Positions 5,736 to 50,264 of a stretch of 64,000 nt of DNA are shown here, in pieces. Each line of letters starts with the position of its first letter. Position 1 is the first letter of the stretch. The position numbers and the translations under genes are program-made. Source of the stretch: Alphaproteobacteria bacterium. Its GTDB lineage: Bacteria > Pseudomonadota > Alphaproteobacteria > DSM-16000 > Inquilinaceae. The stretch lies in contig JANQSN010000062.1 in the NCBI GenBank assembly GCA_028284045.1, positions 1 through 64,000 of the forward strand, given 5' to 3'. Below the pieces are notes generated by a model. It worked only from the letters and a program-made list of their open reading frames with translations. It did not search any database and was not told the origin of the DNA.

Positions 5736-6665
5736 ATGGTCAGCTTGGACAAGGCCGTCGAGACGGCCGCCATTGCCGACCCGGTCTTGGAGGACGCGCC
5801 GCCACCGCGGCCGATCACCGAGTTCTGGTTCGCCTTCTCGCGCAACCGCGGGGCCTTGGCCGGCCTGGTGGTGATCGCCACCATCTGCTTCGTGGCGATC
5901 TTCGCCGATGTGCTGGCGCCGCATCTGCCCAACCACCAGTACCGCGACGCCCTGTTGGCCGAGCCGCTGACCCGTCACCCCGAGCTCGGCTGGTTCCTCC
6001 TGGGCACCGACGATCTCGGGCGGGATATCTTGTCGCGCGTCATGCATGGGGCGCGGCTGTCCATGTCGGTCGGCTTCCTCGTCGTCGCGCTGGCGCTGAC
6101 CACCGGGATCGTCCTCGGCCTGATCGCCGGCTTCTTCCCCGGCGTTCTCGGCATCGTGATCATGCGCGCGATGGACATCATGCTGTCGCTGCCGACGATC
6201 CTCTTGGCCATCGTCATCGTCGCCATCCTGGGGCCCAGCCTGACCAATGCCATCATGGCGGTGGCGATCGTCCAGTTACCGCATTTCGTTCGGCTGACCC
6301 GCGCAGCGGTGATGACGGAGCGGTCGAAGGACTATGTGGTGGCCAGCCGGGTCAGCGGGGCCGGCCTGCCGCGGCTGATGGTGCTGACGGTGCTGCCCAA
6401 CTGCATGCCGCCCTTGATCGTCCAGGCGACGCTGGGCTTCTCCACCGCCGTGTTGGATGCCGCGGCGCTCGGCTTCCTCGGCCTCGGCGCCCAGCCGCCG
6501 ACGCCGGAATGGGGCACCATGCTCGCCGGCGCCATGCAGTTCGTGCAGCGGGCCTGGTGGGTCGTCACCTTCCCCGGCGTGGCGATCCTGGTCACGGTGC
6601 TCGCCTTCAACCTGTTGGGGGACGGGCTGCGCGACGCGCTCGACCCCAAGCTGAAGCAGAGCTGA
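5736..6665 (+). CDS. Peptide ABC transporter permease (DppC-like)
   Basis: 309 residues. After a short cytoplasmic N-terminus come the OppC_N-type helix ([20 protein letters not shown]) and the conserved [11 protein letters not shown]-like element ([19 protein letters not shown]). The EAA loop is [20 protein letters not shown] followed by [11 protein letters not shown]. It pairs with the preceding permease. Its stop lies nine bases before the next ATG, so the two are co-transcribed and probably coupled in translation. Confidence 0.93.
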
Positions 6666-14595: not shown

Positions 14596-15350
14596 CGCCG
14601 GACGAAGCCGACGCGACCACCAGCCAAGACGCGCTGCTGGACGGCCGGATCGTTCTGCACCAGCCCCGCCACGGCTACCGTAGCGCCGTCGATCCGGTGC
14701 TGCTGGCCGCCGCCCAGGACCCGCGACCCGGCGACCGTGTCGCCGATCTGGGCTGCGGTGCCGGCGTGGTGATGCTCTGCCTCCTGGTCCGGCTGCCCGA
14801 GATCGCCGTGATCGGGGTGGAGCGGGACCCGCACCTCGCCGACCTGGCGCGCCGGAACCTGGCGGCCAACGGCTTCGCCGATCGCGCCCGGGTGGTGGCG
14901 GCCGATATCGCCGACGCCGCCCGGTTGGCGGCCGAACTCGGCACGGTCGACCGGGTCGTCACCAATCCGCCCTATCATGCCGCCGGCGGCCACACGCTGC
15001 CCGACGATGCGGCGGCCCGCGACGCCGGGCACGAAGGGACGGTCGGCCTGGAAGACTGGCTGGCGGCGGCGGCCCGCATGGTCGCCCCGCGGGGCACGCT
15101 GTCGCTGATTCACCGCGCCGACCGGCTGGTCGACATCCTGCGGGGCCTGCCGCGGGGCTTCGGGTCGGTCACGCTGACGCCGCTCTGGCCGAAGGCCGGC
15201 CGGCCGGCCAAGCGGATCATCGTCACCGCGCGACGCGGCGGCCGGGGGCCGGCACAGCTCGCCCCAGGCTTGGTGCTGCACGAGGCCGATGGCGGCTACA
15301 CGGCCGAGGCAACGGCCGTGCTGCGCGGCGGCGGCGCGCTGGACGGGTGA
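14592..15350 (+). CDS. TrmN6/YfiC-like methyltransferase
   Basis: 252 residues. S-adenosylmethionine-binding Rossmann fold with motif I VADLGCGAGVVMLCL, acidic loop VIGVERDP and the N6-adenine methyltransferase catalytic motif TNPPY. The N-terminal HQPRHGYRSAVDPVLLAA is diagnostic for the tRNA1(Val) A37 N6-methyltransferase-like family (COG4123). The likely substrate is tRNA adenine. Its 3' end overlaps the convergent M48 protease gene by 128 bases, which is unusual. Confidence 0.87.
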   Translation: MTPDEADATTSQDALLDGRIVLHQPRHGYRSAVDPVLLAAAQDPRPGDRVADLGCGAGVVMLCLLVRLPEIAVIGVERDPHLADLARRNLAANGFADRARVVAADIADAARLAAELGTVDRVVTNPPYHAAGGHTLPDDAAARDAGHEGTVGLEDWLAAAARMVAPRGTLSLIHRADRLVDILRGLPRGFGSVTLTPLWPKAGRPAKRIIVTARRGGRGPAQLAPGLVLHEADGGYTAEATAVLRGGGALDG

Positions 15351-16188
15351 CCCGATCGCGTCCCGGCGGCCCCAGGGCGGCCGGCAGCGGGGTCATCGGG
15401 CCGGTCGTCGGCCAGCCCTGTTCCCGTGCCCGCGTCTCGATCGCCGCGATGCGGTCCCGGGTCAGCGGATGCGTGGACAGGAAGGCCGGCCCCTGCCCGG
15501 CCTCTCCCCCCGCCGCGGCGATCAGCGCCTCGAACAGGTCCGTGGCACCGCCGACATGCCCATAGGCCGCGGCCAGGGCCGCCAGCGCGTCCCGGTCCGC
15601 CCGACGCTCCGCGTCGCGGCCGTAGCTCAGCTCGACCAGGCGGCCGGTGCCGCCGATCAGCCCCTCGGTCAAGCCGCCGATGTCGCCCAGCACCAAGGAG
15701 AGGGCCAGATCCAGCAGCAGCCGGCCGCCGAGCGCCCGGGCGACGTCGCGGTGGCGGACATGGGCGATCTCATGCGCGACCACCATGGCCAGCGCGTTCT
15801 CGCTTTCCAGCCGATCGGTCAGCCCGGCGAACATGTAGATGTTGCCGCCGAGCGTCGCGAGCGCGTTCACCGTCGGCTCGTCGACATGGTGCAGCGTCAC
15901 CGTCATGCCGTCGGGCAGATCCATCAGCGGCACCAGGCGGTCGGCCAGCCGCTGCAGCGCCACGGTCTCCGGATCACGCGGGTCGGGCTCGTCCAGGACG
16001 ATGTCGGCGACCGAGCGTTCCCAGCCGAACGGGGTCAGCGTCGCGATCCATCCGCCCAGCCACAGCGCCAGTGCCACCAGCGCCGCCATCACAACCGCCG
16101 CACCCGCCGCCAGAATCGCCAAGTCGCGCCAGACGCGCTGGCGGCTGACATTGATCCCTTCCGGGATCTTGGGGTTTTCGTATCTCAG
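15223..16188 (-). CDS. M48 family zinc metalloprotease (likely CTG start)
   Basis: About 321 residues if started at CTG 16188. The zinc motif HEIAH (His139, Glu140, His143) and the downstream third-ligand region SYGRDAERRAD identify an M48 peptidase. One N-terminal membrane helix (LAILAAGAAVVMAALVALALW) anchors it. The first ATG/GTG/TTG-type start lies after the conserved N-terminal RYENPKIPEGINVSRQ, which is a family hallmark, so translation almost certainly begins upstream. The only candidate is CTG at 16188, inside CTGA overlapping the previous gene's stop. The C-terminal 40 or so residues, Arg/Pro-rich, overlap the convergent methyltransferase gene and may be non-conserved. Confidence 0.83.
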   Translation of the reverse strand: MRYENPKIPEGINVSRQRVWRDLAILAAGAAVVMAALVALALWLGGWIATLTPFGWERSVADIVLDEPDPRDPETVALQRLADRLVPLMDLPDGMTVTLHHVDEPTVNALATLGGNIYMFAGLTDRLESENALAMVVAHEIAHVRHRDVARALGGRLLLDLALSLVLGDIGGLTEGLIGGTGRLVELSYGRDAERRADRDALAALAAAYGHVGGATDLFEALIAAAGGEAGQGPAFLSTHPLTRDRIAAIETRAREQGWPTTGPMTPLPAALGPPGRDRVTRPARRRRAARPLPRPCSRHRPRAAPSLGRAVPAPGRRVAR

Positions 16189-16694
16189 CGCACGCGCCCC
16201 ACGCCGGTCCCGCCGGCCGGCAGCGCGGCGGTACCGTAGGCCAGGACCTCGATGGTCCCAATCGCCCCGCGGCCCCCCTTGGAGATCGACGCGGTCTCCA
16301 TCCGCACATTGACGATCACCGACGCCCCGATCGCCCGGGCTTCGCCGCGCATGCGCAACAACGCCTCCCGCCGCGCGCGGTCGATCAGGCTCTCATACGC
16401 GGTCACCCGGCCGCCGAAGAGCATCTTCAGTTGCGCCAGGAACCGCTTGAAATAGTCCAGCGAGATCACCGCGCTGCCCTCGACCATGCGGGTCTCCGGC
16501 GCCGGCCCCAGTCCCGGAAAATCCTCCGGCACCCGTCGGGTCGAGATGATCGGCAGGTCGCGCAAGATCCTCTCGCGGGCCAGGATGGAGCGGTAGTGCG
16601 CCCGCTCCCGCGCGCTGCCGACCAGATAGCCGAGAACGATCAGGAAGACCGGTACCCCGACCTGCCAGAAGAGCGGGTTGGACAGCACGGACAT
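16185..16694 (-). CDS. YbjQ/DUF74-domain protein with N-terminal membrane anchor
   Basis: 169 residues. An N-terminal helix (about 10-27, FWQVGVPVFLIVLGYLVG) is followed by a basic linker and then a YbjQ-like (UPF0145, heavy-metal-binding-type) domain: EGSAVISLDYFKRFLAQLK, a long helix with YESLIDRARREALLRM, and GASVIVNVRMETASI...EVLAYGTA. The fold is a small ring-forming domain of unknown biochemical role. It lies between a soluble YbjQ gene and the M48 protease gene, the latter coupled by a CTGA overlap. A role in membrane-protein quality control with the protease is possible but inferred. Confidence 0.8.
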   Translation of the reverse strand: MSVLSNPLFWQVGVPVFLIVLGYLVGSARERAHYRSILARERILRDLPIISTRRVPEDFPGLGPAPETRMVEGSAVISLDYFKRFLAQLKMLFGGRVTAYESLIDRARREALLRMRGEARAIGASVIVNVRMETASISKGGRGAIGTIEVLAYGTAALPAGGTGVGRVR

Positions 16695-17009
16695 CTAGTC
16701 CACCGTCACCGCGGTGCCGTAAGCCAACAGCTCTGCCGCACCTTGCGCCACCGACGAGGTAGCGAAGCGGACGTTCAGCACCGCGTTCGCGCCGACAGCC
16801 CGGGCCTGCTGCTCCATCCGCTGCAGCGCTTCCGCCCGCGCATCGCTCAACAGCTCGGTATAGGCGCCGAGCTCGCCGCCCACGATGTTCTTCAGCCCCG
16901 CCAGGAAGTCGCGGCCGAGATGCTTCGCCCGGACGGTACTGCCCTGGACGATGCCCAGATGGGCGGTCACGGTCTTGCCGGGAACGTATTCCAGCGTGCT
17001 GACGATCAT
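16695..17009 (-). CDS. YbjQ family protein (UPF0145)
   Basis: 104 residues from ATG 17009 (MIVSTLEYVPGKTVTAHLG), the standard start for this family; a few more in-frame codons upstream are possible. The typical YbjQ body is present: GIVQGSTVRAKHLGRDFLAG, YTELLSDARAEALQRM, AVGANAVLNVRFATS and LAYGTAV. The proteins form pentameric rings in structures of relatives, and their function is not established. It is the first gene of a three-gene unit with the anchored YbjQ paralogue (adjacent, no gap) and the M48 protease. Confidence 0.87.
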   Translation of the reverse strand: MIVSTLEYVPGKTVTAHLGIVQGSTVRAKHLGRDFLAGLKNIVGGELGAYTELLSDARAEALQRMEQQARAVGANAVLNVRFATSSVAQGAAELLAYGTAVTVD

Positions 17010-17239
17010 GCGGTGCGGCCTCACGATGGATCAGGGAGGCTACACCATAGCGCATTTTGCTTTCGCCGACGCCCAAAGACCCTTGAGATGGACCCGTCGT
17101 CCGACGCCGCGGGCGGACCCCTGCTCCCGATCGCCGCAGGGCTTGTCTTGGCCGGGGCGGGCGCGCATTACAGCGGCGGCGGTCCACCGCCTCGTTCGCC
17201 ACCTCTTCGACCCGGGCGAAGGACGACCGCACCCGCGCG

Positions 17240-18109
17240 ATGACGACAGCCGAATCCTCCCCGACGACGACGCAGCCGACCGGCCGCCCCGCCCTGTGGC
17301 GGCGGATATGGCCGCGGCCGCCCCTGGTCGCCGTGGTCCGCCTGGCCGGCGTCATCGGCCAGGTCGACGGGCTGCGCCGCGGCCTGGCGTTGAGCGCCGT
17401 CGCCGGCACGCTGGAACGGGCATTCTCCCATCGCCGGGTGGCCGCGGTGGCGCTGGCCGTCAACTCCCCCGGCGGCGCGCCGGTGCAGACCGCGCTGATC
17501 GCCCGCCGTATCCGCGACCTCGCCGACGAACACGGCGTCCCGGTCTACGCCTTCGTGGAGGACGTGGCGGCGTCGGCGGGCTATTGGCTGGCCTGCGCCG
17601 CCGACGAGATCTATGCCGATGCCGGCTCCATCGTCGGCTCCATCGGCGTGATCAGCGCCGGTTTCGGCTTCGACCGGCTGATCGAGCGTTGGGGCATCGA
17701 CCGCCGCGTCTACACCGCCGGCACCCGCAAGGCGCTGCTCGACCCCTTCCGGCCGGAGGACGGCGACGACGTCTCGCTCCTGAAAGACATCCAGGGCGAC
17801 CTGCACCGCCTCTTCCGCGACTATGTGGAGACGCGCCGCGCCGACCGCCTGACCCCGGGCGAGGAGACGCTGTTCGACGGCCGCGTCTGGACCGGGGAGC
17901 GCGCCCACGCCCTCGGCCTGATCGACGGCGTCGGCCAGATGCGCCCCATCTTGCGCCAACGGTTCGGCGACAAGGTCCGCCTGAAGGTCATCGGCGAGCC
18001 GCGCGGCCTGTTGCGCCGGCGGCTCGGTCTGACCGAGGCGGAAGCCCTGCCCGCCGCCACCCTCGCCACCCTCGAAGAGCGCCTGATCTGGGCGCGCTTC
18101 GGGCTCTGA
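17240..18109 (+). CDS. S49 family serine peptidase (SppA/SohB-like)
   Basis: 289 residues. The peptidase S49 core is present: [34 protein letters not shown] with the probable nucleophile Ser112, [16 protein letters not shown], and Lys164 in [11 protein letters not shown] as general base (Ser-Lys dyad). A hydrophobic N-terminal segment ([16 protein letters not shown]) is short and may be a core strand rather than a signal peptide. Relatives degrade cleaved signal peptides or membrane-protein fragments. This is a single-domain form like SohB, shorter than the double-domain E. coli SppA. Confidence 0.88.
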
Positions 18110-24395: not shown

Positions 24396-24399
<4 letters not shown>

Positions 24400-25319
24400 C
24401 CGGCCGGGACGTCATCACCGGCGACGGGGTCAGGCTGCACGCCACGGCCTGGCCCCCGCCGCCGCGTCCCAAGGCGACGGTGCTGATCGGCCCCGGCCGC
24501 ACGGAACCTATCGCCAAGTATGATGAAGCCGCGCGCGATCTGATCGCGCGCGGCTTTGTCGTGCAGGGCTTCGACTGGCGGGGACAGGGCCTGTCCGACC
24601 GCCCGGTCGGCCATCCCCAGAAGGGCCATGTCGACGATATCGGCGCGTATGCCGACGACCTCGCCGCCGTGCTGGCCGATCTGGTCGCAACCGCCCCGCC
24701 GGTGCGGCCGCTGATCCTGCTCGCCCATTCCACCGGCGGGCTGGCGACGTTGACCTATCTGCTGGACCGGCCCGCCGGCGGGCTCGCGGTCGACGGGGTG
24801 GCGCTGTCCGCTCCGCTGCTCGGGCTCGGCGGCGGCCGGTTGTTCGCCGGTGCGATCGCCACGGCGGCCCGCCTCGCCACCGCGGTCGGGCTTTCCAAGC
24901 GCTATGCGATCGGCCAGGGCGACTGGCGCCGCGAGACCTTCGACGGCAATCGGGTAACCCGCGACCGGCGCCGGTTCGAGGCCGCACAGGACCTGTTCGC
25001 CGAGCGGCCCGAGCTTCGGGTCGGCGGCGCGACCTGGGGATGGATCGCGGCGGCTGTGCGGGGATGCGCGCGCCTGGCGGACCCCGCGGCACCGCCGCGG
25101 ATCAGCATTCCCCTGCTTTTCGGCATTGCCGGCGCCGACCGCATCGTCAGCCCGCCGGCGACCCGCCGCTTCGCCGACCGCGCCGGCGATGCCACGGTGC
25201 TCGACCTGCCCGACAGCCGGCACGAGATCCTGCAGGAGATCGACGCCGACCGAACCCGCTTCCTCGACGCCGTCGACGCCTTCGCCGACCGTCTATCAGC
25301 GTCGGCCGGGGGACCCTAG
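24396..25319 (+). CDS. Alpha/beta hydrolase (lysophospholipase-like), likely CTG start
   Basis: About 307 residues if started at CTG 24396. Serine hydrolase of the Hydrolase_4 type: GRTEPIAKYDEAARDLIARG, DWRGQGLSDR, nucleophile elbow LAHSTGGLA (Ser), late Asp in IAGADRIVSP and His in PDSRHEIL. It resembles monoglyceride lipases or lysophospholipase PldB. In-frame sequence upstream of the first GTG (24480) encodes VITGDGVRLHATAWPP, which is the expected first beta-hairpin of this family. The only start before an in-frame TAG (24393) is CTG 24396, in a CTGA overlap with the ppdK stop. Confidence 0.82.
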
Positions 25320-48188: not shown

Positions 48189-50264
48189 ATGAGCGAGACG
48201 GCGCTGCCGCCCCCGCCCCCACCCGATGTCAGCCGGCTGCTCGACCCGAAGGCGGTGGACCGGCCGGCCGCGGTCGGCCAGCGCCTGCGCGTGCGCCTCG
48301 CCATCGCCTTGCCGGTCGTGCTGGTCCTGGTCGCCGGGCTGTCGGCCGGGATCCTGTTGGAGCGGCGCGAGACGCTGTTCGGGGGCTTGCAGGAACGGCT
48401 CGGCCTGCTCGCCGCCGGACGCGCGGCGGTAATCGACGAGCGGATCGACCGGTTGGTGGAGCTGCCGTCCTATGTCATCGACAGCGATGCTTTCCGCCTG
48501 TTCGCCACCGAGGTCGATCTGGTGGCGGCCGACGATCCGCTCGCCGTGCAGTTGCACGACATGGCCCCCTATATGGCCGAAGCGCTGTCGGAGCTGGTGC
48601 GCCAGCGGGGCCTGGTAGCCGCCTATCTGATGGCCCGGGACGGCGAGTCGGTGCTGGCCAGCGGCGCGGCGCCGGAGTTGAGCCCCGACGCCCGGTCACC
48701 CGCCCTGACGGTGTTCGAGAACGGGAACCCGCGCTTCTCCGCGGTCCACCGCCGCGCCGATGGCCTGGCGCTCGACGTCTTCCTGCCGGTCCGCGCCGTG
48801 CAGGCGCCCGCGCCGGACACCCCGGCCGACATCGTCGGGGTCTTCGTGATGACGGTCCCGGTGGCGGAGATGCTGGCGGAATTCGTGCAGCGCCCGATGC
48901 TGGCGGCGCCCGGCGAACGGATCGTGCTGATCCAGACCGATCAGGGGTCGGCGTCGGCCGTGGCGACCGGACGGGCAAACCGCTTCCAGCCGGTCGACTG
49001 GACGCCGGAGGGCGCGATCGGCGCCATGCGGCGCGGCGCCAGCCCGCTCGACGCCCAGCCGGTCTTTTCCGTCGCCGTTTCGGTCGCGCGACTCGGTTGG
49101 TACGTCGTCCAGGAGGTCGACGAGGCGATCGCCATTCGCCCGCTGGTCCGCGCCCGCCTTGTGGTGTTTCTGGTCGCCGGGCTGGTCGTGGTGTTGATGA
49201 CGACCGTCGCCATCGCCCTCTTGTCCGGTCAGGCCAGCGCCTTCAACCGCGCGCTCGCCCGCCAGTACCGCGAGCTGGCCCTGAAGATCGACGCCCACCG
49301 CCGCCTGCTCGACAGCATCAACAGCACGATCAACGAGATGATCGGCCTGAAACGGCCCGACGGCACCTACACCTATGTCAACGCCGCCTTCGTGCGCATC
49401 GTCGACCGGGCGGAAGACCAGATCATCGGCCAGACCGACGAAGGCGTCTTCGGCCATGGCCAAGCGCAATGGCTGGAGCTGGCCGACCGCCAGGCCCTGG
49501 AGACCGGCACCGCGATCCGTGCTGAACAGCGCCTGTATGTCGACGGCACCCTGCACTATCTGGAGATCTCCAAGGTCCCGCTGATCGGAGAGGACGGGCG
49601 CGCCGACGGCATCGTCAGCGTCGCGCGCGACGTCACCGAGCTGGTGGACGAGCGGCGGCGGCGCGAGGCTGCGCTGCACCACACCGTCGACGCCCTGATC
49701 AAGACCATCGAGTTCAGCGACCCCTATCTCAGCGGGCATGCCCGCCTGGTCGGCCGCTTCACGGAACTGATGGCCCGCGGCCTCGGCCTGTCCGCCAGCG
49801 ACGCGCAGACGCTGGAGATCGCCGCCAATGTCGCGCAGATCGGCAAGCTGTTCGTGCCGCGCGACATCATCTCCAAGCCCGGCCGCCTGTCGGCCGAAGA
49901 GCAGGCGGTGATGGAACGGCACATCGACTACGCCCGCGCCGTGCTGGCGGAGATCGATTTCGACCTGCCGGTGCAGTCGACCATCGCGGCGATGTATGAG
50001 CGCCTGGACGGCACCGGCTACCCGCTGCATCTCAAGGGCGACGACATACCGCTGTTGTCGCGCGTCCTCGGCCTCGCCGACGTCTTCTGCGCGCGCATCC
50101 GCCCGCGTTCCTACCGGGCCGGGGTGTCGCCGGACGAGGCACGCACGCTGCTGCGCACCCATTCCAGCCAGAAGTTCGGCGAAGACCTGTTGGAAGTGCT
50201 CGACATCGTCCTGAACACCACCGAGGGCGAGAAGCTGATGGCGCTGGCCCGTACGGAGATCTGA
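48189..50264 (+). CDS. Membrane sensor with PAS and degenerate HD-GYP domain; candidate LapD substitute
   Basis: 691 residues. Membrane helices at about 31-53 and 318-345 enclose a periplasmic sensor region of about 260 residues. A PAS domain (about 375-485) and an HD-GYP domain (about 497-680) follow. The GYP loop is intact (DGTGYP), as are GHARLV and MERHIDYA, but metal ligands are lost: the usual HD pair is Ala549-Gln550 (NVAQIGK), the usual HH pair is Met602-Tyr603 (MYERLDGTGYP), and the late Asp of ADVFDA is Cys634. c-di-GMP hydrolysis is therefore unlikely, and a binding-only receptor role is plausible. It lies 63 bases after the LapG-like gene, where LapD would be expected. Confidence 0.85.
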   Translation: MSETALPPPPPPDVSRLLDPKAVDRPAAVGQRLRVRLAIALPVVLVLVAGLSAGILLERRETLFGGLQERLGLLAAGRAAVIDERIDRLVELPSYVIDSDAFRLFATEVDLVAADDPLAVQLHDMAPYMAEALSELVRQRGLVAAYLMARDGESVLASGAAPELSPDARSPALTVFENGNPRFSAVHRRADGLALDVFLPVRAVQAPAPDTPADIVGVFVMTVPVAEMLAEFVQRPMLAAPGERIVLIQTDQGSASAVATGRANRFQPVDWTPEGAIGAMRRGASPLDAQPVFSVAVSVARLGWYVVQEVDEAIAIRPLVRARLVVFLVAGLVVVLMTTVAIALLSGQASAFNRALARQYRELALKIDAHRRLLDSINSTINEMIGLKRPDGTYTYVNAAFVRIVDRAEDQIIGQTDEGVFGHGQAQWLELADRQALETGTAIRAEQRLYVDGTLHYLEISKVPLIGEDGRADGIVSVARDVTELVDERRRREAALHHTVDALIKTIEFSDPYLSGHARLVGRFTELMARGLGLSASDAQTLEIAANVAQIGKLFVPRDIISKPGRLSAEEQAVMERHIDYARAVLAEIDFDLPVQSTIAAMYERLDGTGYPLHLKGDDIPLLSRVLGLADVFCARIRPRSYRAGVSPDEARTLLRTHSSQKFGEDLLEVLDIVLNTTEGEKLMALARTEI

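Follow-up and report, generated by a model that had tools for sequence, protein, structure and literature searches.

Results

The M48 gene and its junction with a YbjQ-like gene

The window, by which we mean the whole stretch of 64,000 nucleotides that was analysed, carries on its minus strand a gene for an M48 metallopeptidase that is co-directed with a YbjQ-like gene, the two being joined by a four-base stop-start overlap (Table 1). The TGA of the upstream gene occupies 16187-16185 and the CTG at the head of the M48 frame occupies 16188-16186, so that the junction reads CTGA; RYENPKIPEGINVS follows immediately past this CTG as the N-terminus of the M48 protein, and the frame closes with a stop codon at 15225-15223. 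The M48 protein matched PF01435 with 81.8 bits (cut-off 20.3), and its HEIAH fits the HExxH pattern. Its matches to NCBIfam models all fell short of the curated cut-offs (best BepA, with 74 of 570 bits), and the NCBIfam score cut-off for membership of the BepA, HtpX or LoiP subfamily was not reached.

Table 1. Features of the M48 locus and of the second CTGA site (window coordinates)
Feature	Coordinates	Strand	Remark
M48 metallopeptidase gene, very probable CTG start, 321 codons plus stop	15223..16188	minus	HEIAH zinc motif; single hydrophobic N-terminal segment
CTGA junction, M48 CTG start overlapping the TGA stop of the YbjQ-like gene	16185..16188	minus	also in G004 and G012
Conserved N-terminal motif YENPKIPEGINVS	16144..16182	minus	5' of every ATG, GTG and TTG in the M48 frame
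TTG, earliest conventional in-frame M48 start	16120..16122	minus	CTG in G004, CTT in G012
M48 C-terminal tail	15223..15350	minus	overlaps a convergent methyltransferase gene; missing in G004 and G012
YbjQ-like protein (PF01906), upstream partner of M48	16185..16694	minus	hydrophobic N-terminal segment
First YbjQ-family gene (PF01906), abutting the second directly	16695..17024	minus	start may be an internal ATG
Second CTGA, hydrolase CTG overlapping the TGA of the pyruvate phosphate dikinase gene	24396..24399	plus	
Alpha/beta hydrolase (Hydrolase_4), apparent CTG start	24396..25319	plus	in-frame TAG immediately 5'

From the in-frame stop 69 codons 5' of the CTG to TTG 16122 at codon +22, the M48 frame holds no ATG, GTG or TTG. 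CTG 16188 is the sole NTG codon in this interval, and 5' of it the frame is, back to the stop, also free of further CTG and of ATT, ATC and ATA. The first-pass annotation had placed the conserved N-terminus of the protein upstream of the first ATG, GTG or TTG and had named this CTG, overlapping the TGA of the upstream gene, as the only candidate start; coordinates and frame proved correct on both counts, with the motif preceding TTG 16122. CTG makes up 2.0% of the window trinucleotides, and a lone CTG therefore says little. The weight of CTG 16188 comes from its conservation at the exact column in three genomes, the same frame being unconserved 5' of it.

The window carries two YbjQ genes before the M48 gene (the three together spanning 15223-17024, minus strand), of which the second has the hydrophobic N-terminus. 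A YbjQ-family gene lies 5' of the M48 gene in 31 of the 33 orthologue rows described below, across Alpha- and Gammaproteobacteria, and no paper listed in one literature search mentioned YbjQ. At the other end, the M48 frame extends about 45 codons beyond the C-terminus of its closest relatives (G004 and G012, 278 residues), and this tail overlaps the methyltransferase 3' end by 128 bases; a different gene lies downstream of M48 in G012. A scan of 15000-17600 for promoters and terminators found none, matching shuffled sequence, and no match was obtained in a search of a plasmid collection.

Conservation of the CTGA junction

The family was sampled with 17 genomes, which are the entire order as sampled. 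At a presence threshold of E < 1e-30 the M48 gene was patchy, being found in three of these genomes, namely that of the window (G000) and G004 and G012, which belong to another genus and whose M48 proteins share 66-67% identity with that of the window. All three read CTGA followed by RY(E/D)NP(K/R)IPEGINVS, and in all three ATG, GTG and TTG are absent from the CTG back to the in-frame stop. The codon preceding the CTG is ATC in G004 and G012, and the window has no such ATC. Since the M48 proteins of G004 and G012 are 95% identical, conservation of the CTG amounts to about two independent lineages. A further record, L033 (JANQQD010000021.1), duplicates a contig of G012, so that the two were counted as one; it is titled as an Anaerolineae metagenome bin yet matches a contig of the window's own family, and the title is probably misassigned.

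More widely, 36 loci from Alpha- and Gammaproteobacteria were examined and 33 rows were kept, after L046 and L047 (motif region unalignable) and L063 (contig edge) had been dropped. Duplicate records were counted once (L033 and L040 with L005, L041 with L034, L042 with L036, L043 with L037, L044 with L038), and the more distant M48 genes L039 and L006 to L032 were left out of this count. In every one of the 33 rows the best start fell within codons -6 to +1 of the column of the window CTG, the start codons being ATG in 25, GTG in three, TTG in two and CTG in three. The first-pass annotation had proposed looking for ATGA at this position in relatives. ATGA does occur there, in three rows (L045, L055 and L072), as does GTGA in two (L034 and L037), but with the three CTGA rows the four-base overlap of start and TGA is confined to eight of 33, and several relatives have intergenic bases between the YbjQ and M48 genes. 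The protein tree built from the 33 rows grouped the three CTG rows in a single clade (SH-aLRT 98). Next to this clade stood the alphaproteobacterial L045, which has ATGA and sits on a long branch, making its placement unsure. From these alignments the CTG looks derived within a family that otherwise uses ordinary starts.

A second CTGA at an alpha/beta hydrolase gene

The TGA of the pyruvate phosphate dikinase gene at 24397-24399 is overlapped in the same way by CTG 24396, from which the frame of an alpha/beta hydrolase runs for 307 codons. The next conventional start of this hydrolase is a GTG at codon +28, past the conserved stretch DGVRLHATAW. All 20 relatives found in 41 searched genomes, its own included, have an ATG, GTG or TTG 5' of this stretch, and the hydrolases of G004 and G012 have TTG at the column of the window CTG. 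It is likely, then, that the hydrolase starts at CTG 24396, a site seen in the window genome only; with a single genome showing it, this CTG may be a sequencing error.

Frequency of CTGA starts in the genome

The genome was sampled over 831,211 bases (the window and 40 further stretches) with 701 called genes. With its high GC content, this DNA often has CTGA ahead of a coding frame, here in 30 cases; over all overlaps of the NTGA type the codon was ATG in 59, GTG in 31, CTG in 30 and TTG in four. For each CTGA case we weighed where ordinary starts lay, the codon signal and Pfam or NCBIfam domains. An ordinary start fitted in 28 of the 30, often as CTGATG with the ATG at codon +1, and only 16188 and 24396 had no conventional start 5' of the conserved part; in the 767,211 bases outside the window no clear CTG start at a CTGA site was found. 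Two such sites among 701 genes indicate that CTG starts are rare here and no habit of the lineage. The frequent presence of a fitting ordinary start also means that CTGA by itself proves nothing, the evidence lying in absent alternatives together with a conserved N-terminus.

Among the CTGA sites set aside in the window, those at 6662 and 18106 are followed by ATG at +4 and +7, and that at 50261 was put down to chance, the gene after it, which we take from its translation to be transhydrogenase-like, beginning at ATG 50477. Elsewhere in the sample, four CTGA genes had their earliest conventional start 10 codons or more downstream, namely L100 (judged by family search), L129 (judged by reading of its translation only), L118 and L132; they were rejected as CTG starts, a fitting ATG being present in each.

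A coarse scan, applied regardless of CTGA, flagged genes whose coding signal preceded the earliest conventional start by 10 codons or more. It returned 21 of the 701 genes, nine of which were inspected closely, and among these nine the two window genes stood. An ordinary start was adequate for L098, L103, L121, L118 and L132, and L104 matched no known family. The ninth, a sigma-54-type regulator on contig C13 (L127:8640-10583, plus strand), lacks CTGA, and its frame shows strong coding signal over 29 codons ahead of any ATG, GTG or TTG, where there may be a rare start or a frameshift. In the G004 sample (387,398 bases) the same scan flagged 13 of 293 genes, of which the M48 orthologue alone had a CTGA.

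Start site and mode of translation

The stretch between CTG 16188 and TTG 16122 evolves as coding sequence. Over codons +1 to +15 the comparison of the window with G012 gave 11 identical, four synonymous and no non-synonymous codons, and that with G004 gave nine identical, three synonymous and three non-synonymous, whereas 5' of the CTG, over codons -10 to -1 of the M48 frame, seven of ten were non-synonymous in both comparisons. A simple codon-usage model, trained for each genome on its own genes, placed the onset of coding signal in the window at 16182, two codons past the CTG, and in G004 one codon ahead of it (L151:15040 against 15043). A start at TTG 16122, with which the first-pass annotation had confronted its own reading, would give a product without the first 22 residues and leave the conserved 5' stretch untranslated. 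As a start, TTG is reported to outperform CTG by far (PMC11497404), and such a product would keep its hydrophobic segment whole, but the stretch in question encodes a motif conserved in Alpha- and Gammaproteobacteria, and the TTG column itself is unconserved (Table 1), the next TTGs of G004 and G012 lying at codons +25 and +32. Substitution pattern, codon signal and the unconserved TTG together indicate that the conserved N-terminus begins at the CTG, and initiation at TTG 16122 is very unlikely. Neither does the other objection raised at first pass, a sequencing error hiding an ATG, survive the comparison. One-base differences commonly lie behind lost starts, but the identical CTGA at the same place in three genomes of two genera excludes such an error for the M48 gene, and the chance that faulty sequencing or assembly made this CTG is negligible. 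We conclude that M48 translation very probably starts at CTG 16188.

A -1 frameshift near the stop could in principle fuse the YbjQ-like protein and M48 into one polypeptide, given that the frames overlap at the TGA and that no stop interrupts the M48 frame over 69 codons 5' of the CTG. In all three CTG genomes, however, the last 60 bases lack XXXYYYZ slippery heptamers, the junction codons differ between the genera, and the separation of the genes in several relatives speaks against fusion too, which leaves this explanation highly improbable. The CTG may instead be kept as a brake, a weak and possibly IF3-sensitive start that holds the protease low and could be relieved. In the frame of the YbjQ-like gene the C of the CTG falls on a fourfold-degenerate third position. 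Both genera have kept this C, even though an A or a G there would leave the YbjQ-like protein unchanged and would give M48 a strong start; a precedent is in print for Streptomyces sigR, which starts at GTC (PMC5472188). Base composition, on the other hand, makes retention of C fairly frequent, the 111 fourfold sites of the YbjQ-like gene having C in 44, G in 62, A in three and T in two, so that the retained C says little for selection on the CTG itself. A brake of this kind is unlikely, if compatible with a CTG start used through coupling.

No regulatory element was found. A stem-loop of the form GATCCC-GGAR-GGGATC (16153-16168, minus strand; L004, L005) lies about 20 bases past the CTG in G004 and G012 as well as in the window, and we rejected it as an initiation aid, four of its six pairs being dictated by the peptide IPEGI, and treated it as a by-product. 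The IPEGI motif is present in 24 of the 33 rows; among these, the two third-base pairs formed in 12 rows each, where shuffling gave means of 8.5 and 12.5 (one-sided values 0.09 and 0.79), and covariation was not significant.

Discussion

In the arrangement that we favour, ribosomes that terminate on the UGA of the YbjQ-like gene would already sit on CUGA and would re-initiate there, which would permit a codon that is poorly used by ribosomes arriving from outside. Starting at CTG 16188, the M48 protease would then be a protein of its own, 321 residues long, and would probably be made in smaller amount than the YbjQ-like protein. At non-AUG starts, position 1 of the protein is formyl-methionine. 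Coupled re-initiation fits the anatomy of the locus, with its four-base overlap, conserved gene pair and modest Shine-Dalgarno pairing; the 20 bases 5' of the start gave pairing energies of -5.6, -5.6 and -3.4 kcal/mol in the three CTG genomes, calculated with an assumed anti-Shine-Dalgarno tail. Provided that the CTG is the start, coupling is quite likely its main route of use, and use of the CTG in the cell by coupled re-initiation, taken as one explanation, is likely.

Published work on CUG in bacteria counts against use of CTG 16188. CUG is reported to make up 0.024% of bacterial start codons and to work at 0.86% of AUG efficiency (PMC11497404), CTG was unenriched when start codons were selected for in mycobacteria (PMC4633059), and an upstream CUG of Caulobacter dnaA that was toeprinted is described as unused in the cell (PMC8443254). 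The NTGA overlap, for its part, is given as the commonest spacing of neighbouring genes, with re-initiation by the same ribosome as one of two models of coupling (PMC12548453). Work on re-initiation at non-canonical codons in a eukaryotic system (PMC4648390) has no bearing here. Among the papers listed by a search with subscription journals mostly outside, judged by title and abstract opening, no paper on a natural bacterial CTGA start was found, and one may exist.

CTG 16188 sits exactly where coupling could offset a weak codon, and the natural series of CTGA, GTGA and ATGA within one gene pair lets one ask if re-initiation relaxes start-codon choice. A wider proposal would be that ribosomes re-initiating at a stop-start overlap discriminate less between start codons than newly initiating ones and that CUGA by itself serves as a start signal, which this clade kept as a fixed low-output setting for a membrane protease and evolved again at the hydrolase; we regard this as speculative and rather improbable. 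For annotation, gene callers restricted to ATG, GTG and TTG would cut short both the M48 protein and the product of the hydrolase gene at 24396.

Arrangements of this kind have been described before, and the M48 CTGA adds a well-supported case. With the coupled NTGA pairs described so far it shares the common strand, the two bases of the NTG that also belong to the upstream TGA and a conserved neighbour (PMC12548453, PMC6728339); it differs in having C as N, the latter source naming ATGA and TGATG, and in that coupling here is read from the arrangement. Like the rare CTG starts reported in bacteria (PMC11497404), it has no alternative start and a conserved N-terminus, and unlike them it has orthologue support from two genera and falls precisely on the overlap of a stop with a start. 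Streptomyces sigR likewise has a non-canonical start within an operon of overlapping genes, but there a GTC opens the first gene and repression by IF3 was shown, whereas here the second gene is concerned and the case is built from sequence (PMC5472188). As to the protein, the Pfam match and the HEIAH motif place it in the M48 family (PF01435; BepA-, HtpX- and LoiP-like), where it is set apart by scores under the NCBIfam cut-offs, by a conserved N-terminal motif of its own and by its YbjQ partner gene.
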